A DNA stretch of 46,932 nucleotides from Clostridia bacterium (GTDB lineage Bacteria > Bacillota > Clostridia > Christensenellales > Aristaeellaceae). Shown here one piece after another: positions 28,591-46,481 of the stretch (the stretch's first letter is position 1; every line of letters starts with the position of its first letter). The stretch is taken from positions 1-46,932 of the forward strand of contig JAFXJP010000021.1 of NCBI GenBank assembly GCA_017532155.1, written 5' to 3'. Made by a program: the position numbers and the translations under genes. The notes beneath the pieces are model-generated. The model searched no databases, was not told where the DNA came from, and worked only from the letters and a program-made list of their open reading frames with translations.

Positions 28591-28593
28591 AGA

Positions 28594-29173: not shown

Positions 29174-30201
29174 CCTCTTCTCTCCTTTTTCATCTGCTTG
29201 TTCAATTTGCTGATTTCCTTATGCCACTGCTGCTTTTTACGCAGGAAAGCCGCTTTATCGTCAGCATATTCTGCTTCTTCTCTCAGCTTCAGATAGCTTT
29301 CCAGCCGCGCGGCGTCCAGTTTGCCGCTCTCCACCGCTGCCCGCAGCGCGCAGCCCGGCTCTTTTTGATGCGCACAATCCCGGAAACGGCACTGGCCGAT
29401 AAATTGCTCTACGTCGCTAAAAGCTTCGTTCAGCCCCTGCGATACATCCCACATGCCCATTTCCCGCATGCCGGGCGTATCGATGATCATCGCGCCGGAC
29501 GGCAGCCTGATCAGCTGGCGGAAGGTCGTTGTATGCCTGCCTTTGTCATCCCCTGAACGGATGCCGCCTGTGATCATCACTTCCCGGCCGCAAAGCGCAT
29601 TGACAAGGCTTGATTTGCCAACGCCGGACGAGCCCAGAAATACCACCGTCCTGCCCGTGTGCAAATACGCTTCCAGTTCCTTCATCCCCTGCCCGGTCGC
29701 CACACTGATGACATGTACCGGCACGCCGATGGCTATCTCCTGCGCCTGCATAAGATAAGGCCCTGCGTCCTCTGTCAGGTCCGCCTTGGTCAGCAATATC
29801 ACCGGCGTCGCGCCTGACTGCCAGGCAAGCGCCAGATACCACTCCAAACGTTTGGGATTAAAGTCATGGTTCAGCGACTGCAGAATCATCACATCATCAA
29901 AGTTTGCCGCCACCGCCTGTTCGCCGCGTCCGGGCAAGGGATCGCGGCGGGAAAAATATGTCCTGCGCGGCAGCGTTTCCACAATCAGGCTGTCTCCCTG
30001 CGCATTGTATTGCATGCGTACAAAATCGCCGACCGTTGGAAAAGCCTGTCCGCCGTCATAGTATTCTTTTGTTTTCAGCCGTGCATAGCCCGCGCCGTGA
30101 TCACTGATGATTTCATAGCGTTCCTTATGCACCGCCGTTATTCTGGCAACTGTGCCTGCTTCGTAATCGGCCTGATAGCCGTATTCCTTTAATATATTCA
30201 A
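29170..30201 (-). CDS. rsgA: Ribosome small subunit-dependent GTPase A
   Basis: About 343 residues. OB-fold N-terminal part, then the circularly permuted GTPase order G4 (LTKAD), G1 (GSSGVGKSSLVNAL), G3 (DTPGMREMG), and a C-terminal zinc site (CRFRDCAHQKEPGC). It acts late in 30S maturation. Start: the chosen TTG has GGAGG 9 nt upstream and gives MNILKEYGYQ. A second, stronger RBS (AAGGAGGG) with ATG lies ~55 nt earlier but is in another frame, one base off in a run of six A. The upstream region holds tandem terminators and a small RNA, so expression may depend on read-through. Confidence 0.93.
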   Translation of the reverse strand: MNILKEYGYQADYEAGTVARITAVHKERYEIISDHGAGYARLKTKEYYDGGQAFPTVGDFVRMQYNAQGDSLIVETLPRRTYFSRRDPLPGRGEQAVAANFDDVMILQSLNHDFNPKRLEWYLALAWQSGATPVILLTKADLTEDAGPYLMQAQEIAIGVPVHVISVATGQGMKELEAYLHTGRTVVFLGSSGVGKSSLVNALCGREVMITGGIRSGDDKGRHTTTFRQLIRLPSGAMIIDTPGMREMGMWDVSQGLNEAFSDVEQFIGQCRFRDCAHQKEPGCALRAAVESGKLDAARLESYLKLREEAEYADDKAAFLRKKQQWHKEISKLNKQMKKERRG

Positions 30202-30296
30202 TTCTTCTTTCCTCCATCTTGCATTGTATCGGGGCAAAATCTTTTTTCATGTTTTCAATCCCTCCTTTTTTCGCCTTCCGTACCGCAAATGGACGC

Positions 30297-30338
30297 AAAA
30301 ATACCGCATCAGACAACCTTCACGGTGTCCGACGCGGT
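30297..30338 (-). terminator. Terminator/attenuator in the rsgA leader
   Basis: A 13-bp stem with two G-U pairs (ACCGCGTCGGACA with TGTCTGATGCGGT on the minus strand) is followed by ATTTTTG. It lies between the small RNA and the rsgA RBS. Confidence 0.75.
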
Positions 30339-30352
30339 TGCATTCAGATATG

Positions 30353-30547
30353 AAAAAACACACCCCTGCGGCGTGTGCTACAACAATCGCGTTATAGAAA
30401 TTCACCTAAGGTTCTCTGGCGGTACGACAACAAAAGCGCCTGTGCGCGCCTTATTTCATCGCACCCATATATTCAGTTACAGAAAGGCGTCCTCCAGAAC
30501 AGTCATCACGCATATCTCCTTTCCCGTCCGGTTCACCGGACATATTT
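30353..30547 (-). ncRNA. Structured small RNA with own promoter and terminator (possibly raiA-motif-like)
   Basis: About 195 nt between a perfect promoter and a CACACGCC/GGGTGTG hairpin with six T. Nested pairings are visible. GUCCGG/CCGGAC with a UGAA loop lies at the 5' end. GUUC-UGG (30494-30500) pairs with CCA-GA-GAAC (30411-30419). Inside it CGCCUU (30484-30489) pairs with AAGGCG (30447-30452). No credible protein is encoded (only a 20-codon frame). The size, layout and several single-stranded words recall the raiA-motif RNA of Firmicutes, but I identify it from memory only. It precedes rsgA on the same strand. Confidence 0.65.
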
Positions 30548-30553
30548 ACAAGC

Positions 30554-30582
30554 ATTATATAAAAAAGCTCCCCGCCTGTCAA
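30554..30582 (-). promoter_or_regulatory. Perfect promoter of the small RNA, built into the merR terminator
   Basis: Minus strand TTGACA, 17-nt spacer, TATAAT. TTGACA lies in the loop of the merR terminator and overlaps the merR stop codon; the spacer is the 3' stem arm plus T-run. Confidence 0.85.
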
Positions 30583-30598
30583 TCCTCTTGCGGCGGGG
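30561..30598 (-). terminator. Terminator of the merR gene
   Basis: CCCCGCC (inside the last merR codons) pairs with GGCGGGG across a 15-nt loop, then AGC and six T. The stem begins in coding sequence. Confidence 0.75.
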
Positions 30599-30962
30599 AA
30601 TTTTCCTCCAAAGCATCTGCAAATGCATGAAAATCCATATGCGGCGTATTGCACAGCGATTGCATTTTCTGCAACATCGCCTCTGTGCGCATTTCGCGTT
30701 CGCGCAGCTTTTGCATATGCGTTTCAATTACCTTCTGCACGCATTTTTCATCCTGCATCATGCTGCTGATCTCCTCCAGCGAAAACTCCGCCCTGCGCAG
30801 CGTACCCACACGGCGCAATGTACGCACATCCTCCTGCGAATACTCATAATAATTGCGTCCGTTCAGTTCATAGCTGGTGGGATGAATCAGCCCACGTTCA
30901 CAATAAAAGCGCACCGCCCGCGCAGTAAGCCCGCTGAGAGCACAAACCTGCTTGATCTTCAT
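30579..30962 (-). CDS. MerR-family transcription regulator
   Basis: 127 residues. The N-terminal winged HTH reads MKIKQVCALSGLTARAVRFY and continues with YCERGLIHPTSYELNGRNYYEYS; the RAVRFYCERGLI helix-wing region is diagnostic. A coiled-coil dimer helix (HMQKLREREMRTEAMLQKM) follows, then a short effector tail ending EENSPPQED with one Cys in the hinge. The inducer cannot be read. AAGGAG lies 8 nt before the chosen ATG. Its promoter has the 19-bp spacer that MerR proteins act on, so it probably controls itself. Other targets are not visible nearby. Confidence 0.9.
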   Translation of the reverse strand: MKIKQVCALSGLTARAVRFYCERGLIHPTSYELNGRNYYEYSQEDVRTLRRVGTLRRAEFSLEEISSMMQDEKCVQKVIETHMQKLREREMRTEAMLQKMQSLCNTPHMDFHAFADALEENSPPQED

Positions 30963-30992
30963 TTGCATTGCTCCTTTTAATGTTGCAAGCAA

Positions 30993-31023
30993 ATGGTACA
31001 CGATGACGTTAGGGCATTGTCAA
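30993..31023 (-). promoter_or_regulatory. MerR-type promoter with 19-bp spacer
   Basis: Minus strand TTGACA, 19-nt spacer, TACCAT, with the palindrome ACG-TCAT-CGT centred in the spacer. This is the layout that MerR regulators untwist to activate transcription. Confidence 0.7.
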
Positions 31024-31098
31024 GCCCATTTGCAGAAAATATTGCCAAATTATTAAATTTTTACATTTGTAAATAACATTTTTGTAATAGCAGGGTAT

Positions 31099-31128
31099 AA
31101 AAAAAGCTCTCCGGCGCACCGGAGAGCC
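31099..31128 (-). terminator. Terminator of the 31137-31655 gene
   Basis: A 9-bp perfect stem GCTCTCCGG/CCGGAGAGC and seven T on the minus strand. Confidence 0.88.
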
Positions 31129-31136
31129 CTGATGTT

Positions 31137-31655
31137 TTACTGCAGCGGCATAAAGCCATCCAATACCGCTTTGAGCTCCTGCAGGCAGCTTTCATCCGCT
31201 ACGCCGGTGCTCAGATTATACATTTCAAAATAGATCGCATTGCCGCCCAGGATCGTCTCAGCATAGTACACCTGCCCTACGCCCGGATGCCGGGCGCTGA
31301 CAATCACAAAGGGCTGCGTGCCTGCATAGTAAACTTCCACTGCCCTGCCGCCCGTTGCATCGCACACCGCCTGCTGATATAGATCCAGCGAGGCCGCGCC
31401 TCGGATTGAAGCGCCCATGCCGCGGTCCGTGTATTCCAGGCCGCAGTCGATGCTGTGCTGCGCATCATACAGAATGAAAAACCAGTTGCCGCTCGTGCTG
31501 CTGTTCAAATAGCTGTACTGATCCAGCGCATAGCGTTCGTCATCATAGCGCAGCGTAAACAGCGCGCCGCCGTCCTTGGCCGTATAGCTGCCCGCCAAAG
31601 CAGCAGGCGACCACATAAGCAGTACACACAGCAGCGCAGCAATCCATCTCTTCAT
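31137..31655 (-). CDS. Secreted hypothetical protein
   Basis: 172 residues with a signal peptide (MKRWIAALLCVLLMWSPAALA, cleavage near residue 21-22). The mature part is beta-rich (GSYTAKDGGALFTLRYDDERY, NWFFILYDAQHSIDCGLEY) and includes a long helix near the end. No known motif is seen. The two mature cysteines are far apart. It looks like a PsbP/DUF1795-type small alpha-beta fold, but that is only an impression. The start is the ATG at the signal peptide, with AAAGGA 11 nt upstream. It has its own promoter and terminator. Confidence 0.75.
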   Translation of the reverse strand: MKRWIAALLCVLLMWSPAALAGSYTAKDGGALFTLRYDDERYALDQYSYLNSSTSGNWFFILYDAQHSIDCGLEYTDRGMGASIRGAASLDLYQQAVCDATGGRAVEVYYAGTQPFVIVSARHPGVGQVYYAETILGGNAIYFEMYNLSTGVADESCLQELKAVLDGFMPLQ

Positions 31656-31688
31656 CGGTAAGGCAATCCTTTCGTATCTCATGCCCTG

Positions 31689-31717
31689 AGTATACCATAA
31701 ATTGTTACGCTTCGCAA
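31689..31717 (-). promoter_or_regulatory. Promoter of the secreted hypothetical gene
   Basis: Minus strand TTGCGA, 17-nt spacer, TATACT, about 33 bases upstream of the ATG. Confidence 0.6.
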
Positions 31718-31719
31718 TG

Positions 31720-32280
31720 TCAATGAATGGTAAAGCTCTTGCGGATTTTTTCATAACGGGCCGCATAAATGGCATCCTGCACGCTTTCCACCACCAGGAA
31801 GGCGCCCATCACGCGCATGAGCGTCATCAGCGTGCCAAAGGGATTGATCAGCACAATCAGACCAAACACCAGCGATACCAGCGCGCCAATCAGCGTTATA
31901 AACCACCGCAGATCGCCCATGCGCTTTAAATCAAACGCACCCTGGGTTTTCAAAATGCCGCCGACAAAAAGCACCAGCCCGAAGATCACAGGCAGAAGCG
32001 ATGCTATCGTCTCCTGCGCAAAGCCTACCACCAGGCCCAATACGATCAGCAAAAGCCCGGACGCCATCCCATCGCCCGAGATAGCCTGCTGCACACTGGC
32101 ACGGAAATAGCCAATCAGGTTGATCGCTCCCATCGCCATCAGCACAGCAGCCAGGCCCCAGAACACCACGCTGGTTGTCATCTGCGGAAACAAAAGCAGG
32201 CACAATCCAGCCACCAGCGCAAACGCAATATAAAATACAGATTTTGAATGGTCTTTGAGAATAAAGATCGTCTTTTTCAT
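31720..32280 (-). CDS. DUF308/HdeD-like membrane protein
   Basis: 186 residues, six hydrophobic helices in three pairs. Helix pairs repeat the pattern GLxLLxFP ... GxxxLIGYFRA and VVGFAQETIAS, GLIVLINPFGT, typical of DUF308/HdeD repeats. It has been tied to acid stress in enterics; the role in Clostridia is unknown. The start is the ATG following AAAGGAGAGG. It is divergent from the penicillin-binding protein gene. Confidence 0.88.
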   Translation of the reverse strand: MKKTIFILKDHSKSVFYIAFALVAGLCLLLFPQMTTSVVFWGLAAVLMAMGAINLIGYFRASVQQAISGDGMASGLLLIVLGLVVGFAQETIASLLPVIFGLVLFVGGILKTQGAFDLKRMGDLRWFITLIGALVSLVFGLIVLINPFGTLMTLMRVMGAFLVVESVQDAIYAARYEKIRKSFTIH

Positions 32281-32412
32281 CAATTATCCTCTCCTTTCAT
32301 ATCCTTTTTACGATATTATTATCAACCGAAGATGAATTTTACTGACAATTCCATACATTTGCGCAGATTTTTTCTTTTCAGGACAAACTACCGCAAGAAA
32401 GGGGTGCATACT

Positions 32413-34896
32413 GTGCGGCGCGAAGAGAAAAAATGGGAAAAGGCCCAGGCGAAAGAGGATAAACGCCTGCTGCAAAAATATGAAGGCAAAAAGAAAAAGC
32501 ATATCCTGCGTAATTTCCTGCTCATCTGTTTTGCATTTACCGTTATGATGCTCATCGCGGGCTATTTCATTTTTGACGTTCCCTCCTGGCAAAAGCTTGA
32601 TCTTGACCGCATCACCGCCGTTGCGCAGACCGGCGTCATCTATGACGCAAACGATGACGTTGTCACCGCGCTCAAGGGCAGCGAGGACCGCACGCTCATC
32701 CGGCTTGACGCCTTGCCCGATCATGTCAAAAACGCTTTCATCGCCGCCGAAGATCTGCGCTTTTACAAGCATCCCGGCTTTGATATTGTGCGTATTTTCG
32801 GCGCTGTGATGGCCAATCTGCGCTCGCGCACCTTTTCTGAGGGTGCCAGCACCATCACCCAGCAGCTGGTCAAGCTCTCGCACCTCTCCGCCGAAAAAAC
32901 CATCGCCCGCAAGCTGGAGGAAATCTATCTTGCCCTGCAGCTGGAGGCCGCCTGCACCAAGGATGAAATCCTTCAAATGTATCTGAACTATGTTTATTTT
33001 GGCCGCGGCGCTTATGGCATCGAGGCTGCGGCGCGCTCCTACTTTGGCCTGAGCGCCAGCGAGCTTTCCCCGGCAAAGGCTGCCGCGCTGGCCGCCATCA
33101 TCAAAGCGCCTTCGGCCTACGCACCGCATCTGAATGCAGATAACAACCGTTCAAGGCGGGAATACATTCTCAATACCATGCTGGAAAACGGGTTTCTGAC
33201 ACAAGAAGAGCATGATGACGCTCTGCATGAAGAAATCGTCGTCCAGCCCCTGCCCGCGCAGGAAAATGCCTATGGCTGGTACATCGACGCCGTGATGGAC
33301 GAGGCCGGTCAATTGCTGGGCATCTCAGGCGATCAGCTGCTGGGCAGCGGCTACCGAATCTATACCGCGCTTGATCCTCAGTATCAGCAAAACGCCAATC
33401 AGCAATATAAAAACGCCTCTCTCTTTCCCGAAAACGCTGCAGACGGCGAACAGCCGCAAAGCGCCATGGCCTGCATCGACGTTTCCTCCGGCGCTGTAAA
33501 ATGTATTGTCGGCGGCCGCGAATACACCGTGCAGCGCGGCCTCAACCGCGCTACGCACATGCTGCGCCAGCCGGGCTCTGCCCTCAAGCCTCTGGCGGTA
33601 TTTGCCCCGGCCATCGAACACCACGGCGTTACACCCGCCACCGTATTAAACGATGCGCCCACCACCTTTGCCGGCGGCTATGCTCCGCGCAACGCCGGGC
33701 ACAATTATCACGGCTACGTCACCGTGCGTGAAGCGCTCAAATGGAGCATGAACATTGCCACCGTCGCCATGCTCGACCAGATTGGCGTTGCCGTAGCGCG
33801 CGCTTATCTGCAAAAGGTCGGCATTCCCCTTACCGACAGCGACTGGGGCTTATCGCTGGCGCTGGGCTCGCTCACCTACGGCGTATCCCCCGTGCAGCTG
33901 GCCGCCGCCTATGTCCCCTTCGCCAACGGCGGCATCTATTATGCGCCGTATTTCATCCGCCGCATCGAGGATGCGCAGGGCAATGTGCTCTACAAGCATT
34001 TCATTCGCGGCGAGCGTGTGCTCAGCGAGGAATCCGCCTATCTGATGACAAGCCTTTTGCAGTCCGTCACCACCGCCGGCACGGGCGCCAAGCTGTCTGC
34101 CGCCGGCACGCCAGTCGCCGGTAAAACCGGCACCGTCAATATGGAATCAGGCGGCAACCGCGATATCTGGATGACCGCCTATAATGCCGAAATCTCCACC
34201 GCTTTCTGGATGGGCTTTGACAACCCCGACAGCACCCACCGCCTGGCCTCCTGGGTGTCGGGCGGCGATTACACCGCAGCGCTCGCCACGCAGTTTTTTA
34301 AAGCCGCCTATCAGGGAAAGCCCAAGCCCGCCTTCCGCACGGCGGAAAATATCATCTGGCAGACCGTGGACCGCGCCAGCGTCGAATGGCTGGGCGAAGC
34401 CATGCTCGCCAGCGATCTGACCCCCTCTTCCTATAAGTATTCCGAAGTCTTCAACAAAAACAATAAGCTGTCCAAATATTCAACCGCCTGGAAGCCGCCG
34501 GCCTCGCCGCGCGCCTTCTATATCACCCACAACGACAGCGGCAATCCCGTGCTGTGCATCACGGCGGCCGAAAACTCCCTCATCCGCGTGCAGCGCGATT
34601 CCTACGGCGAAAGCATTGTGCTGACAGAACTATCCGCCTCCGCCGGGCAGACGCTCTATTATGCCGATACCGCCGCCCGTCCGGGCGTCGTATACACCTA
34701 CCGCATCACGCCCGTGCATCAGGAGCTTTTGCAAAACGGCATATTGCTGGAAGGCACGCAGTCCGTGCAGATTGCCCAGGCCCGAGCGCCCGTCAACGGC
34801 GGCAATCTCTGGGATACGCTGCGCAATTTCTTCAGCGGCACAAATGACGAAACCGAATCTGCCGACGCGCTGTATTTTGCCCCGAATGACCAATAA
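32413..34896 (+). CDS. Class A penicillin-binding protein (PBP1a-like)
   Basis: About 827 residues. GTG start with AAAGGGG 8 nt upstream. A short basic cytoplasmic stretch and one membrane helix (residues ~35-55) precede a GT51 glycosyltransferase domain with the catalytic AAEDLRFYKHPG and STITQQLVKL. The transpeptidase domain has PGSALKP (Ser nucleophile), SMN and GKTGT in order. A C-terminal FN3-like domain (FYITHNDSGNPVLCI ... TYRITPVHQELL) follows. It polymerises and cross-links peptidoglycan outside the membrane. Nothing suggests resistance-type changes. Confidence 0.96.
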   Translation: MRREEKKWEKAQAKEDKRLLQKYEGKKKKHILRNFLLICFAFTVMMLIAGYFIFDVPSWQKLDLDRITAVAQTGVIYDANDDVVTALKGSEDRTLIRLDALPDHVKNAFIAAEDLRFYKHPGFDIVRIFGAVMANLRSRTFSEGASTITQQLVKLSHLSAEKTIARKLEEIYLALQLEAACTKDEILQMYLNYVYFGRGAYGIEAAARSYFGLSASELSPAKAAALAAIIKAPSAYAPHLNADNNRSRREYILNTMLENGFLTQEEHDDALHEEIVVQPLPAQENAYGWYIDAVMDEAGQLLGISGDQLLGSGYRIYTALDPQYQQNANQQYKNASLFPENAADGEQPQSAMACIDVSSGAVKCIVGGREYTVQRGLNRATHMLRQPGSALKPLAVFAPAIEHHGVTPATVLNDAPTTFAGGYAPRNAGHNYHGYVTVREALKWSMNIATVAMLDQIGVAVARAYLQKVGIPLTDSDWGLSLALGSLTYGVSPVQLAAAYVPFANGGIYYAPYFIRRIEDAQGNVLYKHFIRGERVLSEESAYLMTSLLQSVTTAGTGAKLSAAGTPVAGKTGTVNMESGGNRDIWMTAYNAEISTAFWMGFDNPDSTHRLASWVSGGDYTAALATQFFKAAYQGKPKPAFRTAENIIWQTVDRASVEWLGEAMLASDLTPSSYKYSEVFNKNNKLSKYSTAWKPPASPRAFYITHNDSGNPVLCITAAENSLIRVQRDSYGESIVLTELSASAGQTLYYADTAARPGVVYTYRITPVHQELLQNGILLEGTQSVQIAQARAPVNGGNLWDTLRNFFSGTNDETESADALYFAPNDQ

Positions 34897-34944
34897 AAAA
34901 GTTTCTGTATTTGTACATTTTATACCTTTATATCCATTCCCTTT

Positions 34945-34965
34945 CTCTATATATTGTGGTATAAT
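34945..34965 (+). promoter_or_regulatory. nrdG promoter region with NrdR-box-like site
   Basis: TATAAT at 34960-34965 is directly preceded by CTCTATATATTGTGGT, which matches the NrdR box consensus (CACwATATwTwGTGT) well. The -35 (TTCCCT, 17 nt up) is poor. It suggests dATP-linked NrdR repression of the class III system. Confidence 0.6.
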
Positions 34966-34999
34966 GCCCGACGGTGTCAAAATGAAGGGAGTTTATGGG

Positions 35000-35695
35000 A
35001 TGCTGTTCGCCGGATTACAAAAGCTGACGCTGCTGGATTATCCGCAGCATACCGCCTGCACGCTCTTTACGCAGGGCTGTAATCTGCGCTGTCCCTTCTG
35101 CCACAATTCGTCGCTTCTGGACGCCTGCTGCGCGCCGGAAAATCCCATCCTGGCTGAGGATGTGCTGACCTTCCTGTATAAGCGCCGCGGTACGCTGGAC
35201 GGCGTATGCATCACCGGCGGCGAACCGCTGATGCATGATGAATTGCGGGAATTCATCCTCCACGTGCGCAATATGGGCTTCCTGGTCAAGCTTGATACCA
35301 ACGGCTGTTATCCGGATAAGCTGCGCCATCTGATAGACGAAGGCCTGCTGGATATGGTTGCCATGGATATCAAAAACGCACCCGCCCGCTATGCCATGAC
35401 GGTGGGCATGCCGCAGTTTGATATTTCCCCCATCCGCGAAAGCGTCGCGCTGCTGAAGGAAAACAAAATTTCCTACGAGTTTCGCACCACGGTAGCGGAT
35501 GAATTGCACCGCGATGAGGATATGGAACAGATTGCCGCATGGCTTCAAGGCGATTCTAAGTACTTCCTGCAGTCTTATCTCGAATCCGACGCTGTGCTTC
35601 ACAAAGGCCTGCATACCCCCTCCAGGGAGAAATTAAAACGGTTTCTCGCTATATTGCAGCCCCTTGTGCCTCACGCCGCCATCCGAGGCGAATAA
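35000..35695 (+). CDS. nrdG: Anaerobic ribonucleotide reductase-activating protein
   Basis: 231 residues. Radical-SAM motif CNLRCPFC (Cys27, Cys31, Cys34) binds the [4Fe-4S] cluster, and GGEPL is the SAM-binding motif. The opening FAGLQKLTLLDYPQHTACTL fits the NrdG/PflA-like group that activates NrdD by making its glycyl radical. The start ATG follows GAAGGGAG with an 8-nt spacer. It precedes nrdD, opposite to the more usual nrdD-nrdG order, and each gene has its own NrdR-like site. Confidence 0.93.
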   Translation: MLFAGLQKLTLLDYPQHTACTLFTQGCNLRCPFCHNSSLLDACCAPENPILAEDVLTFLYKRRGTLDGVCITGGEPLMHDELREFILHVRNMGFLVKLDTNGCYPDKLRHLIDEGLLDMVAMDIKNAPARYAMTVGMPQFDISPIRESVALLKENKISYEFRTTVADELHRDEDMEQIAAWLQGDSKYFLQSYLESDAVLHKGLHTPSREKLKRFLAILQPLVPHAAIRGE

Positions 35696-35709
35696 ATCGA
35701 TAACGTTTC

Positions 35710-35747
35710 ACTGGATACACAACATATTGTGTATCCAGTTATTTTTT
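35710..35747 (+). terminator. Terminator after nrdG that also carries an NrdR-box-like palindrome
   Basis: A 13-bp perfect stem (ACTGGATACACAA with TTGTGTATCCAGT, CATA loop) and T-run. Its centre ACACAACATATTGTGT (35717-35732) resembles an NrdR box. Confidence 0.75.
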
Positions 35748-35758
35748 CAATCTACATA

Positions 35759-35787
35759 TTGACAGGAGCCACAATATATGGTATGGT
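35759..35787 (+). promoter_or_regulatory. nrdD promoter with NrdR-box-like site in its spacer
   Basis: TTGACA, 17-nt spacer, TATGGT. Most of the spacer is CCACAATATATGGTAT (35769-35784), an NrdR-box-like site, so a bound repressor would block polymerase. It lies ~52 bp centre to centre from the site in the terminator above. Confidence 0.75.
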
Positions 35788-35854
35788 GGTATCGCTCGGT
35801 CGAAGGGCCGCGTACCAAACAAAAAAATATTATGAAAACAGAGAGGATTCATTC

Positions 35855-38224
35855 ATGTACAATGTCATGAAGCGCGACGGCACGATTGCCGATTTCGATA
35901 TCGCGAAGATTTCCGTGGCCATCACCAAGGCCTTTGAAGCGGAAAAGGTCGCCTACCATCCCACCGTCATTGATCTGCTCGCCCTGAAGGTTACCAGCGA
36001 TTTTGCCAGCAAAATCAAGGATAACATCATCAGCGTGGAAGATATTCAGGACAGCGTGGAAAGCGTGCTGAGCCAGGCCGGCTATACCGGCGTTGCCAAG
36101 GCGTACATCCTCTACCGCAAGCAGCGTGAGAAGGTGCGCAACGTCAAGGCCGCCATGCTCAACTATAAGGATCTGGTGGACAGCTATCTGGACTCCAGCG
36201 ACTGGCGCGTGAAGGAAAACTCCACCGTCACCTATTCTGTCGGCGGTCTGATCCTCAGCAACAGCGGCGCCATCACCGCCAACTACTGGCTGAGCGAGAT
36301 TTATGATCCTGAGATTGCCGAAGCGCATCGCTCTGCGGCCATCCACCTGCACGATCTTTCCATGCTCACCGGCTACTGCGCCGGCTGGTCTCTCAAGCAG
36401 CTGATCATGGAAGGTCTGGGCGGCGTCGGCGGCAAGATCACCTCCAAGCCCGCCAAGCATCTGGCTTCTCTGTGCAACCAGATGGTCAACTTCCTGGGCA
36501 TCATGCAGAATGAATGGGCGGGCGCGCAGGCGTTCTCCTCTTTCGATACGTATCTTGCGCCCTTCGTCAAGGTGGATAACCTCTCTTACGACGATGTAAA
36601 GAAGTGCATTGAGTCCTTCATCTACGGCGTCAACACGCCCTCCCGCTGGGGCACGCAGGCGCCCTTCTCTAACGTCACGCTGGACTGGACGGTTCCCAAC
36701 GACCTCAAGAACCTGCCTGCCATCGTCGGCGGCAAGGAGATGGACTTCACCTACGGCGACTGCAAGCGCGAAATGGACATGGTCAACAAGGCCTTCATCG
36801 AAATCATGATCGAAGGCGACGCCAACGGCCGCGGCTTCCAGTACCCCATCCCCACCTATTCCATCACCCGTGATTTCGACTGGAGCGAGACCGAGAACAA
36901 CCGTCTGCTCTTTGAGATGACGGCCAAGTACGGCACGCCCTATTTCTCCAACTACATCAACAGCGATATGGAGCCCAACGACGTTCGATCCATGTGCTGC
37001 CGTCTGCGCCTTGACCTGCGCGAGCTGCGCAAGAAGTCCGGCGGTTTCTTCGGCAGCGGCGAAAGCACCGGTTCCGTGGGCGTTGTTACCATCAACATGC
37101 CCCGCATCGCCTACCTGTCCGAAAATGAAAAGGACTTCTACAAGCGCCTCAACCACATGATGGATATCTCCGCGCGCTCGCTGCACATCAAGCGCGCCGT
37201 CATCACCAAGCTGATGAACGAGGGCCTGTATCCCTACACCCGCCGTTATCTGGGCTCTTTCGATAACCACTTCTCCACCATCGGCCTGGTGGGCATGAAC
37301 GAAGCGTGCCTGAACGCCAAGTGGCTGCGCGCCGACCTGACCGAGGAAAAGGCCCAGAAGTTCACCCAGAATGTGCTCAACCACATGCGTGAACGCCTGA
37401 GCGACTATCAGGAGCAGTACAACGGCGAACTGTTCAACCTCGAAGCCACGCCGGCTGAATCCACTTCCTATCGTCTGGCCAAGCATGATGTGAAGATGTA
37501 TCCCGACATCATCACCGCCAACATGAACGGCGATACCTACTACACCAACTCTTCTCACCTGCCCGTCAGCTACACCGAGGATATCTTCTCCGCGCTGGAT
37601 GTGCAGGATGAGCTGCAGACGCTCTACACTTCCGGCACCGTGTTCCACGCCTTCCTGGGCGAAAAGCTGCCCGACTGGCGTGCTGCCGCGACGCTGGTTC
37701 GCAAGATCGCCGAGAACTACCGTCTGCCCTACTACACCCTCTCCCCGACCTACTCGGTCTGCGCCGAGCACGGATATATTTCGGGCGAAGTCTACTCCTG
37801 CCCCCACTGCGGTCAGCCCACCGAGGTATACAGCCGCATAACCGGTTACTACCGTCCCGTCCAGAACTGGAACGACGGTAAGAGCCAGGAGTTCAAGGAG
37901 AGAAAGATCTACAACATCGAGACCTCCCGTCTCCGCAGCGAAGGCAGACCCGCCCGTGAGGAGGCTCCCGTTGAGGAAAGATGCGACCTTCCCGACGGCG
38001 TAATGCTCTTTACCACCAAGACCTGCCCCAACTGCCGTATGGCAAAGACCTTCCTTGAAAAGGCGGGCATTGCCTACCGTGCCATCGACGCCGAGGAAAA
38101 CGCCGATATGGTCGGCCGCTTCAACATCAAAAAGGCACCCACTCTCGTGGTAGTTTCCAACGGCAAGACCGGTATCTATTCCAACGCCTCCGAGATAAAG
38201 AAGTTTACCGAGGCCGACAAATGA
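35855..38224 (+). CDS. nrdD: Anaerobic ribonucleoside-triphosphate reductase with C-terminal glutaredoxin-like domain
   Basis: 789 residues. ATP-cone (~5-95, MKRDGTIADFDIAKISVAI) for allosteric control, then the catalytic barrel. The glycyl-radical loop is SRITGYYRP (Gly664). A zinc site precedes it (CAEHGY ... CPHC). From ~residue 710 a glutaredoxin-like domain with CPNC (Cys724, Cys727) follows, MLFTTKTCPNCRMA. It makes dNTPs without oxygen; the fused domain may supply reducing thiols. Codon usage changes near 37.75 kb: no Ile ATA before 37838, then ATA, AGA and TCG are common. The C-terminal part may come from another genome. The stop overlaps trxB by 4 nt. Confidence 0.95.
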   Translation: MYNVMKRDGTIADFDIAKISVAITKAFEAEKVAYHPTVIDLLALKVTSDFASKIKDNIISVEDIQDSVESVLSQAGYTGVAKAYILYRKQREKVRNVKAAMLNYKDLVDSYLDSSDWRVKENSTVTYSVGGLILSNSGAITANYWLSEIYDPEIAEAHRSAAIHLHDLSMLTGYCAGWSLKQLIMEGLGGVGGKITSKPAKHLASLCNQMVNFLGIMQNEWAGAQAFSSFDTYLAPFVKVDNLSYDDVKKCIESFIYGVNTPSRWGTQAPFSNVTLDWTVPNDLKNLPAIVGGKEMDFTYGDCKREMDMVNKAFIEIMIEGDANGRGFQYPIPTYSITRDFDWSETENNRLLFEMTAKYGTPYFSNYINSDMEPNDVRSMCCRLRLDLRELRKKSGGFFGSGESTGSVGVVTINMPRIAYLSENEKDFYKRLNHMMDISARSLHIKRAVITKLMNEGLYPYTRRYLGSFDNHFSTIGLVGMNEACLNAKWLRADLTEEKAQKFTQNVLNHMRERLSDYQEQYNGELFNLEATPAESTSYRLAKHDVKMYPDIITANMNGDTYYTNSSHLPVSYTEDIFSALDVQDELQTLYTSGTVFHAFLGEKLPDWRAAATLVRKIAENYRLPYYTLSPTYSVCAEHGYISGEVYSCPHCGQPTEVYSRITGYYRPVQNWNDGKSQEFKERKIYNIETSRLRSEGRPAREEAPVEERCDLPDGVMLFTTKTCPNCRMAKTFLEKAGIAYRAIDAEENADMVGRFNIKKAPTLVVVSNGKTGIYSNASEIKKFTEADK

Positions 38225-39096
38225 CCGATATAGTCGTTATCGGCGGCGGCACGGCAGGACTGACTGCCGCAATATACGCCAGACGTGCCGGAAAAAGCGT
38301 GCTGATCATCGAGGGCGAGAGCATAGGCGGTCAGATCGCCTTCTCCCCCAAGGTCGAAAATTATCCCGGTATCATGTCCATCTCGGGTGCGGAGTTCACC
38401 GACGCTCTGCTTGAGCAGGCGTTGGCGTTGGGCGCCGAGCTGACCTTTGAAAGGGTCACCGCCATAGAGGGGCTCACCGTCGTCACCGAGGACGGCAGGC
38501 ACGACGCAGGGGCGATCATAATCGCCTCGGGCGTCAAGCACCGCCATCTGGAGATAGAAAACGAGGACGTTTCGGGAGTTTCCTACTGCGCCGTATGCGA
38601 CGGAGCCTTTTACAAGGACAAGACCGTTGCGCTCGTCGGCGGCGGAAGCACCGCCCTTACCTCGGCAGAGCTTTTATCGGGGCTTTGCAAAAAGGTCTAC
38701 CTCATCCACCGCCGTGACGTCTTTCGTGCCGAGGCATCCCTTGTCGAACGTGTCAAGGCCCGAAGCAACGTAGAGTTCATCGTTCCTGCCACCGTTTCGG
38801 AGATCAAGGGAAAGGACGAGCTTTGCGGCGTGGTGCTCAACACACCCAACGGAAGCCGCAGCCTTGAGATCGAGGGACTCTTCGTCACCGTCGGTCAGAT
38901 ACCTCAAAACGCACCCTTCGCCTCTGCCGTAGCGCTCGACAGCGACGGCTACGTCATCGCAGGCGAGGACTGCCGCACATCCGCTCCTCACATCTACGCC
39001 GCAGGCGACTGCCGCACAAAGACCGTCAGACAGCTCACAACAGCCGCCGCAGACGGTTCGGTTGCAGTAATGTCGGCACTTGCGGATATGGAGTAA
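38221..39096 (+). CDS. trxB: Thioredoxin reductase-like flavoprotein
   Basis: 291 residues. FAD-binding GGGTAGLTAA at the N-terminus, redox-active CAVC (Cys123, Cys126; the family usually has CATC), NADPH-binding GGGSTA, and the C-terminal FAD motif YAAGDCR. It reduces thioredoxin/glutaredoxin-type proteins with NADPH. The ATGA overlap with nrdD means the two are translated together, and the likely partner is the CPNC domain fused to NrdD. It is about 20 residues shorter than typical TrxB, with both nucleotide domains present. Confidence 0.93.
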   Translation: MTDIVVIGGGTAGLTAAIYARRAGKSVLIIEGESIGGQIAFSPKVENYPGIMSISGAEFTDALLEQALALGAELTFERVTAIEGLTVVTEDGRHDAGAIIIASGVKHRHLEIENEDVSGVSYCAVCDGAFYKDKTVALVGGGSTALTSAELLSGLCKKVYLIHRRDVFRAEASLVERVKARSNVEFIVPATVSEIKGKDELCGVVLNTPNGSRSLEIEGLFVTVGQIPQNAPFASAVALDSDGYVIAGEDCRTSAPHIYAAGDCRTKTVRQLTTAAADGSVAVMSALADME

Positions 39097-39100
39097 AATA

Positions 39101-39146
39101 AAAAGCAAAAAACGCACCGTAGTTTTACGGTGCGCTTTTTGTTTTG
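39101..39146. terminator. Bidirectional terminator between trxB and the CDF gene
   Basis: A 9-bp perfect stem CGCACCGTA/TACGGTGCG with A-run before and T-run after. It serves both convergent genes. Confidence 0.9.
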
Positions 39147-39149
39147 AAT

Positions 39150-40277
39150 TCAGTTGAATGCGTCGGAATCGAAGGTTATCTCGGTTTGATATCTGCCCGG
39201 GTACAGGCTTTCAAGGCGGGCATCGATCATATCCTTGATCTCCTTTTCCCGTCCCGCAAGCTCTTCGGGCAGGGACAGATCAAAAAACAGCTTTGTAAAG
39301 CCGTCGCAGGGAATGCTTCTGAAATCGTGAATGGAAAGGCGGTTATCCCTATCCACAAGCACCGCAATTACGGTGTGCTTGAGCTCGTTGAGCTCGGGAT
39401 CGTCGGTCACGACGGGGTCGTAGTGGACCGTCAGCACGGTACCGTAGGCGTTAAACTCTCGCTCGAATCGGTCGATGACCTCGTGGACGTAGAGCGGGTC
39501 GAGCCTTCTGTCTATCTCCAGATGTACCGAGCAGAAGGATATTCCCGGGCCGTAGTCGTGTATCATCAGATCGTGGTAGCCTATAACGATTGGATATTCC
39601 TTTATCTTATCCAGGATCAGCCCGCGCAGACGGCTGTCATTCTTTTTTCCGAGGATCGGAGAGGAGGTCTCACGCACAAGCATTACGCCGTTTATGAGTA
39701 TAAACAGTGCAACGGCAAGCCCGGCGAAGCCGTCTATCTTTACCTTTGCAAAATGCTCTGCGATGCTCACCGCAAGTATCACCGAGGTTATCACCGCATC
39801 GTTGCGGCAGTCTGCGGCGGTGGCCTTGAGGGTGACCGAATCGATCTTCCTTGCCATACGGCTGTTGTAGATGTAAAGGGCAAGCTTTACCGCTACCGAC
39901 AGGGCAAGTATCACCGCCGTCAGAAGCGAAAAGTTTATTGCGGTAGGTGCAAATATCTTTTCGACCGAGCCCTTGGCAAGCTCGAAGCCGACCACGATTA
40001 TAAATATCGAGACGATGAGGCTGGAGATGTATTCAAATCTTGCGTGTCCGTAGGGATGGTCCTCATCGGCGGGCTTTTTTGCAAGACGGAAGCCGATAAG
40101 CGTCACGACCGAGCTTACGCCGTCAGAGAAGTTGTTGACCGCATCGGCCACAATCGACATCGACGAGGATATCAGACCGACGGCGAGCTTTCCCAGTGCG
40201 AGCAGCAGGTTTACCGCTACGCCTATCTGCCCCGCTCTTTGGCCCATATTCGCACGTTTTTCGTTGTCCTGACTCAT
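39150..40277 (-). CDS. Cation diffusion facilitator (CDF) metal exporter
   Basis: 375 residues. Six helices in the N-terminal ~205 residues. The metal site in TM2 reads SIVADAVNNFSDGVSS and HPYGHARFEYISSL follows TM2, both CDF hallmarks (HxxxD in TM5 is present as DCRND/ATAADCRNDAV). A cytoplasmic C-terminal region of ~170 residues is longer than usual and contains the ferredoxin-like CDF C-domain plus an extra segment. It exports Zn, Mn, Fe or Co; which one is not readable. The start overlaps the ABC exporter stop by 4 nt. Confidence 0.93.
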   Translation of the reverse strand: MSQDNEKRANMGQRAGQIGVAVNLLLALGKLAVGLISSSMSIVADAVNNFSDGVSSVVTLIGFRLAKKPADEDHPYGHARFEYISSLIVSIFIIVVGFELAKGSVEKIFAPTAINFSLLTAVILALSVAVKLALYIYNSRMARKIDSVTLKATAADCRNDAVITSVILAVSIAEHFAKVKIDGFAGLAVALFILINGVMLVRETSSPILGKKNDSRLRGLILDKIKEYPIVIGYHDLMIHDYGPGISFCSVHLEIDRRLDPLYVHEVIDRFEREFNAYGTVLTVHYDPVVTDDPELNELKHTVIAVLVDRDNRLSIHDFRSIPCDGFTKLFFDLSLPEELAGREKEIKDMIDARLESLYPGRYQTEITFDSDAFN

Positions 40278-42226
40278 TTTGTCTCTTCGGAACTCCCCTC
40301 TGCGTTTTCTCGCTCCTGATGTTCGGTTATATACCTATGTGCCTGGGTGGTAAAGAGTCGGTGGTATGCCCCCTGCGCCTTCATAAGCTCGGCGTGGTTG
40401 CCCATCTCCACAAGCTGTCCCTGCTCGAGAACGAGTATCTTGGTGGCGATTGTTGCGCTTGAGAGGCGGTGTGAGACAAAGAAGGTCGTCTTATCCTCCC
40501 TCAGACGGTCAAACTGGTTAAATATCTCCTGCTCGGCAATGGCATCCAGCGACGCCGTCGGCTCATCAAGAATGAGCACGTCGGAATCGGAGTAAAACGC
40601 CCTCGCTATGGCGATCTTCTGCCACTGGCCTATGGAGGGCTCTATGCCATCCTTTTCAAACACACGCATAAGCGGAGTGTCATAGCCGTTTGGCAGCAGG
40701 TTTATAAATTCGTCGGCGGATGCCGCAACGGCGGACGTCCTTACAAGCTCACGGTCAAGCGGCTTTTCTATCTCTCCGAATGCGATGTTTTCATTTACCG
40801 TGAATGCATAACGTCCGAAATCCTGGAAGATCGCACCGTACATACCGTAAAGCTCCTCGGTATCGTACTCTCTGATGTCATATCCGTCAAGCAGTATCTC
40901 ACCCTCGGTCGGGTCGTAAAGGCGGGTAAGCAGCTTTAAAAGGGTGGTCTTGCCCGCTCCGTTGAGTCCCACAAGCACCACCGTATCGCCGGGATCGACT
41001 CGGAAGGAGATATCTTTGAGGACGTCACGCTTGGTCCCGGGATAGCGGAAGGAGACGTTTTTGAACTCGATGGTGTGTCCGCAATGTCTTTCGACCTTTC
41101 GGGGTGTGGGCAGAGTCGGGACGATATTTCGCTTTTCGTCCATAAACACGATCATATTGTCTATGAAAAGCGTACCCTCATAGATATGCGAGGTGGTAGT
41201 GACAAGGCTCGCAACCGCCGAGGCGATGGAGGTAAGGGCCCCGGTATAGAGGGAATAGTCGCCTATCTGTCCGTTTCCGAGGGTGACAGTGCATGCTATG
41301 AAGAAAAACAGTGCGCAGTTTACCGCCGTAGTTACCAGCGAAATGCCGACCGACCAGGCCGTTTCACCCGCAATAAGCTTGCGAATGCCCGAAAAGTACT
41401 TGGCAAAGACCTTGTTGTAGTTGAAAATGAAGGTATCCGACAGACCGAAGAGTCTCAGCTCCTTGACCATATCCTTGTTGACAAGGGTGTCGGAGTAGTA
41501 GTTCATCTGACGGCGCTCCTTGGAGCGGCGGCGCATATAGTGAAAGTTCTTTTTACGGTAGGAGAATGTGATGATGGCGCTCGGAAGCGAGAGCACTATC
41601 ACGACCAACGGCGCAAACCATGCAATTGCGGCAAGTATGGCTATAAAGCTGACCGCCGAGATAAGGGTACTGACTATGCTGAAGGTGGAGCGTATGACCT
41701 CGATGGGACGGGAGCCGGCCTCTCGGTTGGCGTTTTCAAACTTTTCGTAAAACTCCGGCATGTCAAAGGAGGCGATGTCTATCTCACGGGCCTTGTTCAT
41801 TATCTTGCATTTTACGTAGTTTGTCACGACCTCGCTGGATGTACGTGTGATATAGTGGCTGATGCTGTTGATAAGGCTCACAAGGAACATATATCCAAAC
41901 TGCAGCACCATTGCAGGCAGCAGTATGCGGCTTATCTCCGAGACCTCCGGGGCTTCAAGGGTCAGCACGTTTGCCACCGAGTTTAAAAGATTTGCCGAAA
42001 TATAGGCCGCAATGACCGGTGACACGCCGTTAAAAACAGCGGTAAAGACCATCAGCAAAAGCAGCGACTTTTTCGCTTCCCAAACAAGGCGCATAATATA
42101 TCCAAGCCTTGAAAAAAAGCTTTTAAACAGTCGCTTTAAATACCCCGGAACCTCACGCAAGCTCTTGGGAAGGGGCTCCTTGAGCTTTTCGCTTGCTTCG
42201 CTGGGAGGTCCGCCAAACCACGCCAT
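40274..42226 (-). CDS. ABC exporter, fused membrane and ATPase domains
   Basis: 650 residues. The N-terminal ~340 residues carry six helices; the C-terminal domain has Walker A GLNGAGKTTLLK, Q-loop FQDFGRYA, signature EPSIGQWQK, Walker B DVLILDEPT and the switch His in FFVSHR. The signature is IGQWQ rather than LSGGQ, as in some lipid or peptide exporters. It probably works as a homodimer. The ATG is chosen because GGGG lies 8 nt before it; a GTG three codons up has no RBS. Promoter at 42263. The CDF gene is coupled behind it. Confidence 0.93.
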   Translation of the reverse strand: MAWFGGPPSEASEKLKEPLPKSLREVPGYLKRLFKSFFSRLGYIMRLVWEAKKSLLLLMVFTAVFNGVSPVIAAYISANLLNSVANVLTLEAPEVSEISRILLPAMVLQFGYMFLVSLINSISHYITRTSSEVVTNYVKCKIMNKAREIDIASFDMPEFYEKFENANREAGSRPIEVIRSTFSIVSTLISAVSFIAILAAIAWFAPLVVIVLSLPSAIITFSYRKKNFHYMRRRSKERRQMNYYSDTLVNKDMVKELRLFGLSDTFIFNYNKVFAKYFSGIRKLIAGETAWSVGISLVTTAVNCALFFFIACTVTLGNGQIGDYSLYTGALTSIASAVASLVTTTSHIYEGTLFIDNMIVFMDEKRNIVPTLPTPRKVERHCGHTIEFKNVSFRYPGTKRDVLKDISFRVDPGDTVVLVGLNGAGKTTLLKLLTRLYDPTEGEILLDGYDIREYDTEELYGMYGAIFQDFGRYAFTVNENIAFGEIEKPLDRELVRTSAVAASADEFINLLPNGYDTPLMRVFEKDGIEPSIGQWQKIAIARAFYSDSDVLILDEPTASLDAIAEQEIFNQFDRLREDKTTFFVSHRLSSATIATKILVLEQGQLVEMGNHAELMKAQGAYHRLFTTQAHRYITEHQERENAEGSSEETK

Positions 42227-42262
42227 ATTCTCCACCCCGTAATCTGTTTTTCTATATTCTAT

Positions 42263-42291
42263 ATTATATCAAAAAAGATGTAAATGCACAA
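42263..42291 (-). promoter_or_regulatory. Promoter of the ABC exporter-CDF operon
   Basis: Minus strand TTGTGC, 17-nt spacer, TATAAT. It is divergent from the HAD phosphatase promoter. Confidence 0.65.
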
Positions 42292-42304
42292 TAGTCGACC
42301 TATA

Positions 42305-42333
42305 TTGACTTTTTTGTCGCTGTGCGATACAAT
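42305..42333 (+). promoter_or_regulatory. Promoter of the HAD phosphatase gene
   Basis: TTGACT, 17-nt spacer, TACAAT. The ATG is ~30 nt downstream after CAGGGGG. Confidence 0.7.
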
Positions 42334-42362
42334 ATAGCAAACGTTTTCAGGGGGCTCACAAA

Positions 42363-43100
42363 ATGAAACTGTTCAAACCCGAAATGGTATTTTTTGACTA
42401 CGGCGGAACTCTTTTCAGCGACAGCCACGTCACCGACGACACGGCTGCCCATGCCATTGCAACGATATGCGGCGTAGGCGACACCGTCGATGCAAACACC
42501 TTCAGGGAGATCAAGGTACGCTGGAGAGAGATGATAAACTTCAGCCACTATACTAACCCCGAGCAGGAGTTTGACTGCGAATTCCCCGTATCGTCCATGC
42601 TTCGCTGTATAACCGACCTCACCGGACTGACACCTCCCTCGGATATGGTCGAGGCGGAGTACGGCTTTCACTGCCACAATGCCACCCATACCCCCATGCC
42701 CTATATCGAGGAGCTTTTAAGCACACTCTCGTCAAAGGGCATCCGCACCGGTGTTATCTCCAACAACGCACTCTCGGGTCCCGGTCTGGAGCTGTTCCTT
42801 AAAAACAATATTTCCCACCGCTTTGAAATATGCGTCACCAGTGCCGATTATATCTACTGCAAGCCCTGTCCTCTTTTGTTTGAAGCCGTCTGCCGCAGGG
42901 TCGGCGTAGACCCTAAAAACTGTTGGTACTGCGGCGACAATGCCCATCCCGACATTTTGGGCTCCCATCAGGCAGGTATGCAGGGCATCCTCGTAGACCC
43001 CACGGCTGACTCCCCCAGTTCCGTCAAGACCTACCGCAATGTCGAATACCTCTGCGTTTCCTCCTGGAAGCACCTCATCGAGGAGTTAAACACTCTGTAA
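42363..43100 (+). CDS. HAD-superfamily phosphatase
   Basis: 245 residues. HAD motif I FFDYGGTLF (Asp nucleophile, Tyr in the second position where Asp is usual in many phosphatases), motif II VISNN, motif III KPCP (Lys), motif IV CGDNAHPD. The organisation with a small helical cap resembles phosphoglycolate- or nucleotidase-type HADs. It probably dephosphorylates a small metabolite; the substrate is unknown. It has its own promoter and terminator. Confidence 0.88.
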   Translation: MKLFKPEMVFFDYGGTLFSDSHVTDDTAAHAIATICGVGDTVDANTFREIKVRWREMINFSHYTNPEQEFDCEFPVSSMLRCITDLTGLTPPSDMVEAEYGFHCHNATHTPMPYIEELLSTLSSKGIRTGVISNNALSGPGLELFLKNNISHRFEICVTSADYIYCKPCPLLFEAVCRRVGVDPKNCWYCGDNAHPDILGSHQAGMQGILVDPTADSPSSVKTYRNVEYLCVSSWKHLIEELNTL

Positions 43101-43120
43101 AGTGATTCGCTTGACATACC

Positions 43121-43158
43121 AACACCCCGCTCCGAGCAGTCGGAACGGGGTGTTTTTT
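43121..43158. terminator. Bidirectional terminator
   Basis: AACACCCCG/CGGGGTGTT encloses a TCCGA/TCGGA inner stem, then a T-run. It separates the HAD gene from the convergent DUF3021 gene. Confidence 0.88.
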
Positions 43159-43171
43159 GCACATCGTGGCG

Positions 43172-43615
43172 TTACCCGTTGTGAGTCTTTATTTTTTCCA
43201 GCTTTGCGTTGAGTTTTCGGCTTATAAGCTTCACCGATCTGGCGACCGACAGCCAGATCACAAGGTATCCGCCTACAAAGATCGCCGTGAATATCAGCAG
43301 GACGTTTGGGTCAAATGGAATCCAGTTGTTTATGAGGTAACAGCTTCCGTAGGCAAGGTAAAGAAGCAGGAAATGGCAAAGCGTCGATTTAAGCAGACTC
43401 CACTCTTCAATTTGGTAAAGTACAGATGCGCCGGCGTGTAAAAATGCAAGGATATATATTGAAACAATGGCAACAAGTATCTCCGTACCGTCAAGGTTAA
43501 AGCCCTCGACGGTCTTTTGGAGGATAGCATAGATAATGCCGAGGATTATCGGTCCGAAGCCTCCGAAGATAAGTCCTCTGTGCAAAAATTCCTTTAGATA
43601 TTTGTTCATACTCAT
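43172..43615 (-). CDS. DUF3021-family membrane protein
   Basis: 147 residues, four hydrophobic helices (RGLIFGGFGPIILGIIYAIL, ILVAIVSIYILAFLHAGAS, LCHFLLLYLAYGSCYLI, VLLIFTAIFVGGYLVIWLSV) and a basic tail. DUF3021 proteins are typically coded with a LytTR regulator and hold it inactive at the membrane. The ATGA overlap with the LytTR gene here fits exactly that arrangement. The signal it responds to is unknown. Confidence 0.92.
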   Translation of the reverse strand: MSMNKYLKEFLHRGLIFGGFGPIILGIIYAILQKTVEGFNLDGTEILVAIVSIYILAFLHAGASVLYQIEEWSLLKSTLCHFLLLYLAYGSCYLINNWIPFDPNVLLIFTAIFVGGYLVIWLSVARSVKLISRKLNAKLEKIKTHNG

Positions 43616-44043
43616 AACCCCATCCTTTCCTTGACCGCCTTTAGCTGTCTGCGTGAGACGTAGTCGACGTATCCGTTTTTAAAGCGCACCTTCAGAGTTC
43701 CCGATATTGACCCGTCGAATCGGTCTATCTTGTTGACGTTTGCAATACATGACTGGTTTATCTTCACAAAGTACCCGGGCAACACCTCCGAAAGCAGATA
43801 CAGTCTCTGCTTGAGCTGCCATTTTTCATTGGCACAGACGGCGTATACCCTGCTTCCGATGACCGCAACGCAGTATATTTCCGACGGATCGAGCTTTGCT
43901 ATCTCCTTGTCCCTATATCCAAAAAGCTCACCGCAATACCCCTCTGCCAGCCGCTGTATCTCATCGGTAAGCGGACCTCTTTTTTGTGCGTAGATGACGA
44001 CCCTTTCTTCGCAGCTGCCGTCTATTATTATTTCACATTTCAT
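43612..44043 (-). CDS. LytTR DNA-binding regulator
   Basis: 143 residues. The C-terminal LytTR domain (residues ~45-143) has LDPSEIYCVAVIGSRVYAVC, LSEVLPGYFVKINQSCIANV and the ending YVDYVSRRQLKAVKERMG; the last is the canonical LytTR C-terminus. The short N-terminal extension is not a receiver domain, so phosphorylation is not expected. It probably controls its own operon with the overlapping DUF3021 membrane protein as partner. The start ATG follows AAGGGGG. Confidence 0.93.
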   Translation of the reverse strand: MKCEIIIDGSCEERVVIYAQKRGPLTDEIQRLAEGYCGELFGYRDKEIAKLDPSEIYCVAVIGSRVYAVCANEKWQLKQRLYLLSEVLPGYFVKINQSCIANVNKIDRFDGSISGTLKVRFKNGYVDYVSRRQLKAVKERMGL

Positions 44044-44064
44044 CCTGCATTCCCCCTTGGTACA

Positions 44065-44093
44065 ATACTACTACGGGATTTTCCCTCTGTCAA
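44065..44093 (-). promoter_or_regulatory. Promoter of the LytTR-DUF3021 operon
   Basis: Minus strand TTGACA, 17-nt spacer, TAGTAT. It is divergent from the superoxide reductase promoter. Confidence 0.6.
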
Positions 44094-44165
44094 GCAAACT
44101 CCCGCATTCGGTCTAAAACCGACATCAAACGGCAGAAATGACAGAAGAAAAGTTTACCTTTTGTC

Positions 44166-44194
44166 TTGAAAATTTTGAGGTTTTGTGGTATCAT
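44166..44194 (+). promoter_or_regulatory. Promoter of the superoxide reductase-ferritin operon
   Basis: TTGAAA, 17-nt spacer, TATCAT, then AAGGAGG and an 8-nt spacer to the ATG. No Fur or PerR box was recognised. Confidence 0.6.
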
Positions 44195-44219
44195 AATAAA
44201 AAACAAGGAGGTATTTATT

Positions 44220-44603
44220 ATGTGTGACAACAATAAATTCTACATCTGCGAGCACTGCGGAAATCTTATCGGTATGATCAACGATGCCGGTGTCCCCATG
44301 ATGTGCTGCGGCAGAAAGATGACCAAGCTCGAGCCCGGTACGGTCGAAGCAAGCCTTGAAAAGCACCTTCCCGTCGTTTCCGTTGAGGGAAACACCGTAA
44401 AGGTCACCGTCGGTTCGGTAGAGCACCCCATGGTCGCAGAACACAGCATCGTCTGGGTCTACCTGCAGACCGATAAGGGCGGCCAGAGAAAGTGCCTTGA
44501 GGTCGGTAAGGCCCCCGTCGTCACCTTCGCTCTTGCCGAGGAAAAACCCCTGGCCGCTTATGCCTACTGCAACCTTCACGGACTGTGGAAGACCACTATA
44601 TAA
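44220..44603 (+). CDS. Superoxide reductase (desulfoferrodoxin)
   Basis: 127 residues. The N-terminal desulforedoxin iron site is Cys10, Cys13, Cys29, Cys30 (YICEHCGN ... MMCCG). The catalytic center II has EKH (Glu47-Lys48-His49), His69, His75, Cys117 and His120 (CNLHG), all present. It reduces superoxide to peroxide without making oxygen, a typical defence of anaerobes. It is followed 13 nt later by ferritin, so it shares a message with an iron store. An in-frame ATG 18 codons earlier lacks an RBS. Confidence 0.96.
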   Translation: MCDNNKFYICEHCGNLIGMINDAGVPMMCCGRKMTKLEPGTVEASLEKHLPVVSVEGNTVKVTVGSVEHPMVAEHSIVWVYLQTDKGGQRKCLEVGKAPVVTFALAEEKPLAAYAYCNLHGLWKTTI

Positions 44604-44616
44604 GGGGTAACAGAAC

Positions 44617-45129: not shown

Positions 45130-45147
45130 CCATATTAGTTCAGCACA

Positions 45148-45185: not shown

Positions 45186-45186
45186 G

Positions 45187-46470: not shown

Positions 46471-46481
46471 GATATTTACAC

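Follow-up and report, generated by a model that had tools for sequence, protein, structure and literature searches.

Chimeric contigs are a described product of metagenome assembly. In one benchmark, megahit produced 22.15 chimeric contigs per genome and SPAdes 2.63 (PMC11261854), and the authors of GUNC list misassembly among the sources of chimeric contigs, although in their view mis-binning is the commoner one (PMC8201837). Here we describe a contig in which codon usage, composition and phylogenetic origin change inside one conserved gene, nrdD. The window, by which we mean the whole 46,932-base stretch of DNA that was analyzed, is C62, one of the 62 contigs of a draft genome (2,017,822 bases; 82.5% complete, 2.57% contaminated). 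On the basis of sequence comparisons, we estimate a probability of roughly 90% that this contig is an assembly chimera of two organisms joined inside nrdD. The original prediction had proposed that a conserved part of NrdD holds either an assembly chimera or a recombination joint. That proposal is supported, and phylogeny, codon usage, tetranucleotides and a second contig of the same bin, C14, favor the chimera.

Organization of the contig

The features of the window that bear on the joint are as follows.

1..37699, no strand: left block, assigned to the genus of the bin (g1), with miaA, MATE genes, PBP1A, nrdG and the first four fifths of nrdD
34661..35695, + strand: nrdG-type activase ORF adjoining nrdD (NCBIfam TIGR02495 NrdG2, residues 116-306; 73% identity to the congener G007)
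35855..38224, + strand: nrdD reading frame, hybrid, with an ATP-cone, an NRDD domain and a C-terminal glutaredoxin/thioredoxin-like domain (Pfam PF03477, PF13597, PF00462/PF00085)
37700..37739, + strand: joint, the stretch holding the switch (codon-by-codon alignment; codon-likelihood switch 37694-37733)
37740..46932, no strand: right block, assigned to another lineage (Pfam/NCBIfam; compositional outlier; no 9-kb equivalent in 10 other, incomplete, genomes of the genus)
38221..39096, + strand: trxB-like flavoprotein of the right-hand lineage (Pfam PF07992; 42-51% identity to the trxB of C14 and seven g1 genomes)

The start of nrdD at 35855 was picked by alignment to relatives. A 30-base palindrome with arms of 13 lies at 35710-35739, between nrdG and nrdD, and is, by resemblance, a putative NrdR box. 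Nine left-block ORFs were tested between 25.1 and 35.7 kb, and six of them match the locus around nrdD in the nearest congener, G007, in the same order and with 63.6-86% protein identity; left of 22 kb, the assignment of the left block is based on tetranucleotide composition. Three ORFs at 28622-30630, one of them RsgA-like, have no match in the nrdD region of G007, where their neighbors stand in the same order. Elsewhere in the left block, a 1161-aa reading frame (12968-16453) with repeated SdrD B-like/SpaA-type domains probably encodes a surface protein, and two nearby helix-turn-helix genes (956-1152 and 2360-2556) have a 74.5% identical stretch in common, perhaps reflecting a duplication.

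The right block carries the 3' end of nrdD, trxB, a CDF transporter, an ABC transporter, a HAD hydrolase, a DUF3021 protein, a LytTR regulator, an unnamed ORF, a ferritin, an alpha-fucosidase and a small conserved protein, for which the NCBIfam matches lie only below the model cut-offs. This last protein (46588-46914), 18 bases short of the contig end, is very conserved, with 97% identity over 106 residues to a protein in G099, a genome of another family.

Searches of the window for tRNAs and Rfam RNAs found none, no repeats were found at the joint, and a scan of 10 proteins encoded by the right block and nrdD revealed no mobile-element genes. The boundary has neither an integrase, nor a tRNA target, nor terminal repeats such as a mobile-element insertion would show. 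These searches bear out the claim that no mobile element, tRNA or repeat lies at the joint. The nrdD frame is likewise continuous, as predicted, and the domain order is kept. A supposed contrast in palindromes between the two sides is not supported: the left side has 9 short inverted repeats over 37.7 kb and the right side 5 over 9.2 kb, so that they are no scarcer on the right.

Codon usage and composition across the joint

Codon choice differs between the left block (8,279 codons in 23 genes) and the right block (2,451 codons in 8 genes) for Ile, Arg, Leu, Gly, Ala and Ser. AGA, AGG, GGA, CTT and GCA are more frequent on the right, and CTG, CGC and GGC are less frequent. ATA accounts for 80 of 192 Ile codons in the 8 right genes versus 16 of 492 in the 23 left genes, in agreement with the prediction that ATA is routine to the right of the joint. 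Within the nrdD frame, ATA occurs only at 37838 and 38195, and AGA only at 37901, 37946 and 37979, which confirms the predicted break in codon usage and the positions claimed for these two codons. The TCG serine codons expected at 37754 and 37781 are also present, but they are not the first in the frame, as had been claimed, since one already occurs at 37178.

We located the switch using a codon-likelihood scan with left and right codon tables that were built without nrdD, and the support interval was defined as all positions within 2 ln units of the best. The best single switch in nrdD is at 37712, with a support interval of 37694-37733. Compared with a model lacking a switch, this fit gains 32.9 ln units, whereas the corresponding gain among the 23 left genes never exceeds 6.0 (right-type 3' end) or 9.1 (right-type 5' end). 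When scored gene by gene, all 8 right genes are right-type and all 23 left genes are left-type. Every right gene scored is right-type as far as 46470, and no reversion to native sequence is seen by the end of the contig (46932).

These scores bear on the possibility that there is no joint at all, and that nrdD and its neighbors simply vary in codon usage in a domain-specific or expression-related manner. Among the relatives compared, the C-terminal domain of NrdD does vary more than the core, and one congener, G010, shows weak left-type usage (+17.2 for the 5' part of nrdD, -0.4 for the 3' part and -11.6 for trxB), such that neither its 3' part nor its trxB is left-type. However, over codons 633-786 of nrdD the window scores -27.8, whereas 8 of 9 g1 sequences score from +12.7 to +27.2, the ninth being G010. 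Two genomes of family f46 are right-type over the same codons (-14.7 for G867 and -9.3 for G819). Neither end of any of the 23 left genes approaches the gain seen in nrdD, the right and left genes separate completely, and the phylogeny changes across the joint as well. Mere variation in codon usage is in effect refuted by the codon and phylogeny tests, and we attach almost no weight to it.

Tetranucleotide composition also sets the right block apart: the values for two 4.5-kb segments of it are exceeded by just 2 of 285 background segments. No sequence among the 52 compared lies closer to the right block than to the left block. These 52 are contig portions of at least 4 kb, with the left block itself counted; at most 20 kb was sampled per contig, except for C14 and C62, which were used whole, and contigs below the segment size were omitted. 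The starts of contigs C42 and C32 have an outlier composition as well, which is probably explained by the one very long reading frame in each (1594 aa in C42, 2569 aa in C32). Thus, the codon and tetranucleotide statistics for each side, which had been proposed as a check on the joint, both change across it.

Relatives of the two flanks

Residues 1-632 of NrdD are 94.9% identical to the nearest congener, G007, while the remainder of the protein is 60.9% identical and TrxB is 49.5% identical. At the DNA level, identity to G007 is 90.6% for 35855-36800, 89.9% for 36801-37503 and 91.5% for 37504-37750, and it then falls to 67.2% for 37751-38224. Eight congener loci show 90-95% identity before the joint and 57-62% after it, with the best matches in G008 and G003 spanning only part of the first half of NrdD. 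The 3' part of nrdD is more variable than the 5' part among the congeners too. Nevertheless, DNA identity in the 3' part is 71.2-85.9% between C14 and the eight congeners, versus 63.9-67.9% between the window and C14 plus the same eight, which is below that range.

A codon-by-codon alignment places the change more narrowly. This comparison left out G009, in which nrdD is split over two contigs, and G001, which has no match. The window is identical to G007 over the 39 nucleotides at 37700-37738. The nine g1 sequences, from eight genomes and C14, all have ATG where the window has CTC (37739) and all encode Lys where it encodes Ala (37763). The drop in similarity to the congeners therefore coincides with the codon switch and puts the likely crossover at 37,700-37,739. 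This lies inside the interval of 37690..37850 in the original prediction, although slightly to the left of the 37.75 kb given there for the change in codon usage.

In a tree of NrdD residues 1-628 (34 sequences left of 38 after coverage filtering), the window falls inside g1 beside G007, with a support of 99 for g1 plus the window. In a tree of residues 633-786 plus TrxB (35 of 39 sequences passed, with C14 in and G002, which is without trxB, out), eight g1 sequences form a clade that excludes the window, again with a support of 99. The two flanks thus differ in phylogenetic origin: the trees disagree on whether the window belongs to g1, each with a support of 99. In the second tree, the window is nearest to G867 and G819 of family f46, at about 1 substitution per site; this grouping, on which the placing of the right block near f46 depends, has a support of only 69. 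Families f1, f10 and f46 are intermixed in both trees, so the deep history of nrdD is either not tree-like by family or poorly resolved, and nrdD or nrdD-trxB may therefore move between families over long times. Examined separately, as had been suggested, the two parts have different nearest neighbors in the trees.

We searched right-block DNA against genomes of the order (396), two families (5 and 103), the class (391) and f46 (16), these sets being overlapping. No close relative of the right block was found among the matches listed from the order and class samples, the three families and the genome_contigs collection. The best matches listed are scattered single genes: the ABC transporter at 71% DNA and 80% protein identity to G802, the ferritin region at 78% DNA identity to G442, the last 359 bases of the contig at 84% DNA identity to G099, and nrdD at 79-80% DNA identity to f46 genomes, in some of which the match starts at 37604 or 37649, crosses the joint and extends to about 37900. 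TrxB reaches at best 57% among its best 80 matches in genome_contigs. The right block probably derives from a lineage outside the collections searched and of the same class, since most titles among the TrxB matches listed name Clostridia or families within Clostridia. In the 10 other genomes of the genus, which are drafts of 59-90% completeness, the right block has no match beyond nrdD, trxB and short pieces.

The rest of the bin contains a genus-type version of the nrdD 3' half. For a 13-kb segment of the left block (22500-35800), the only second matches in the draft genome are two of 71 and 106 bases. In the right block, the nrdD 3' end and trxB are matched a second time on C14, and the ferritin region on C16 (71%). 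Contig C14 (35,302 b; locus L035 of the draft genome, G000) terminates inside nrdD at the base matching 37504, carries a genus-type nrdD 3' end and trxB, and over its first 11.5 kb has the gene order of G007, with gaps. We considered C14 as an exact continuation of the left block and rejected it, as the 247 bases that it shares with the window (37504-37750) are just 87.9% identical. At this identity, C14 is by sequence a different congener strain or species and thus does not supply the continuation missing from this particular strain. The bin seems to contain pieces of two congeneric strains or species.

The 12% difference between C14 and the window over these 247 bases would also fit a left block that is the contaminant, with the right block as the native part of the bin. 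However, the composition of the left block is typical of the other contigs, none of which is nearer to the right block in tetranucleotides, and residues 1-632 of NrdD are 90-95% identical to those of the genus. We regard this arrangement as scarcely credible.

Other properties of the bin concern its assembly. The ends of C20 and C39 overlap exactly by 141 b, and this single overlap suggests a de Bruijn assembler with k=141; other exact overlaps of contig ends are 103-136 b. Several 25-mers that appeared to be common to short contigs of the bin were an artefact of N runs. The window carries copies, at 1-170 and 6600-6890, of a repeat family dispersed through the bin, with 24 and 20 matches, respectively (the window's own counted), on 15 and 14 contigs of the examined sequence. 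Open frames in the pieces examined are at most 109 codons. Several copies lie at or near contig ends, and the family therefore probably breaks the assembly. The right block contains no copy, although 9 kb is too short for this absence to mean much.

Origin of the joint

We propose that a short-read metagenome assembler joined two organisms in nrdD. The left 37.7 kb would be a genuine stretch of a g1 genome, and the right 9.2 kb would come from a different lineage in which trxB likewise follows nrdD. Within a highly conserved segment of nrdD, the two genomes probably had almost the same sequence for a few tens of bases, with the donor sequence presumably matching over the joint, and the graph path of one genome would have run on into the other at homologous positions. 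Joining at homologous positions would have left the reading frame intact, so the intact frame is no argument for a biological origin. The 36-mer at 37703-37738 occurs exactly only in the window among the 391 class and 396 order genomes sampled, samples that do not include G007, which has it; copies with 2-3 mismatches, from other families, are present in nine further genomes of the order sample and one of the class sample. We infer that the junction arose in the computer (or in the library) and not in the cell.

A real homologous recombination would differ in having taken place in a g1 cell, which would have taken up at least 9.2 kb from a distant donor through one crossover in the conserved core of nrdD, with a functional hybrid NrdD as the predicted product. 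The intact frame and the kept domain order agree with this, but DNA identity to the genus past the joint is only 64-68%. The order of nrdD then trxB in g1 and in other families makes homologous exchange conceivable; yet the sequence does not return to native before the contig ends, none of the 10 other genus genomes (all drafts) has the block, and none of the 10 right-block and nrdD proteins scanned is a mobile-element protein. Past transfers would leave families intermixed in both nrdD trees, as they are, but the codons and tetranucleotides of the right block are strongly unlike those of the bin, and a genus-type nrdD 3' end with trxB is present in the bin. We consider such a recombination unlikely. 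It is similarly improbable that a crossover between families in the catalytic core of NrdD yielded a hybrid reductase with the Zn-site, the glycyl-radical loop and the fused redox domain of a distant donor, together with at least 9 kb of imported DNA.

If the contig is an assembly chimera, then attributing the apparent hybrid enzyme or the final 9 kb to this genome would be wrong. Users of the draft would assign a hybrid NrdD, CDF and ABC transporters, a ferritin, a LytTR regulator and a fucosidase to the wrong organism, or else report a transfer between families, and the low contamination estimate of 2.57% would prompt no second look. The case is a warning. It also illustrates that a codon-usage break in a conserved gene can place a joint within about 40 bases without reads.

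Compared with known systems, both halves of the window protein look like ordinary members of the class III anaerobic ribonucleotide reductases NrdD (PF13597) with a fused C-terminal glutaredoxin-like domain, and in the congeners 84-86 of residues 701-789, the C-terminal domain, can be aligned as well. Unlike an ordinary NrdD, the window protein combines the N-terminal part of one lineage with the C-terminal part of another. With mosaic genes formed by homologous recombination, it has in common a sharp in-frame switch in a conserved core, but such genes differ from this case, in which no second breakpoint is seen, no congener has the joint, the right part is of another lineage, and the sequence is a draft contig. 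The contig resembles the chimeric contigs of short-read metagenome assemblers such as megahit in its join at homologous conserved sequence, its two compositions and phylogenies, its kept frame and its fragmentary state, and it differs from them in being a case known from sequence rather than from reads.
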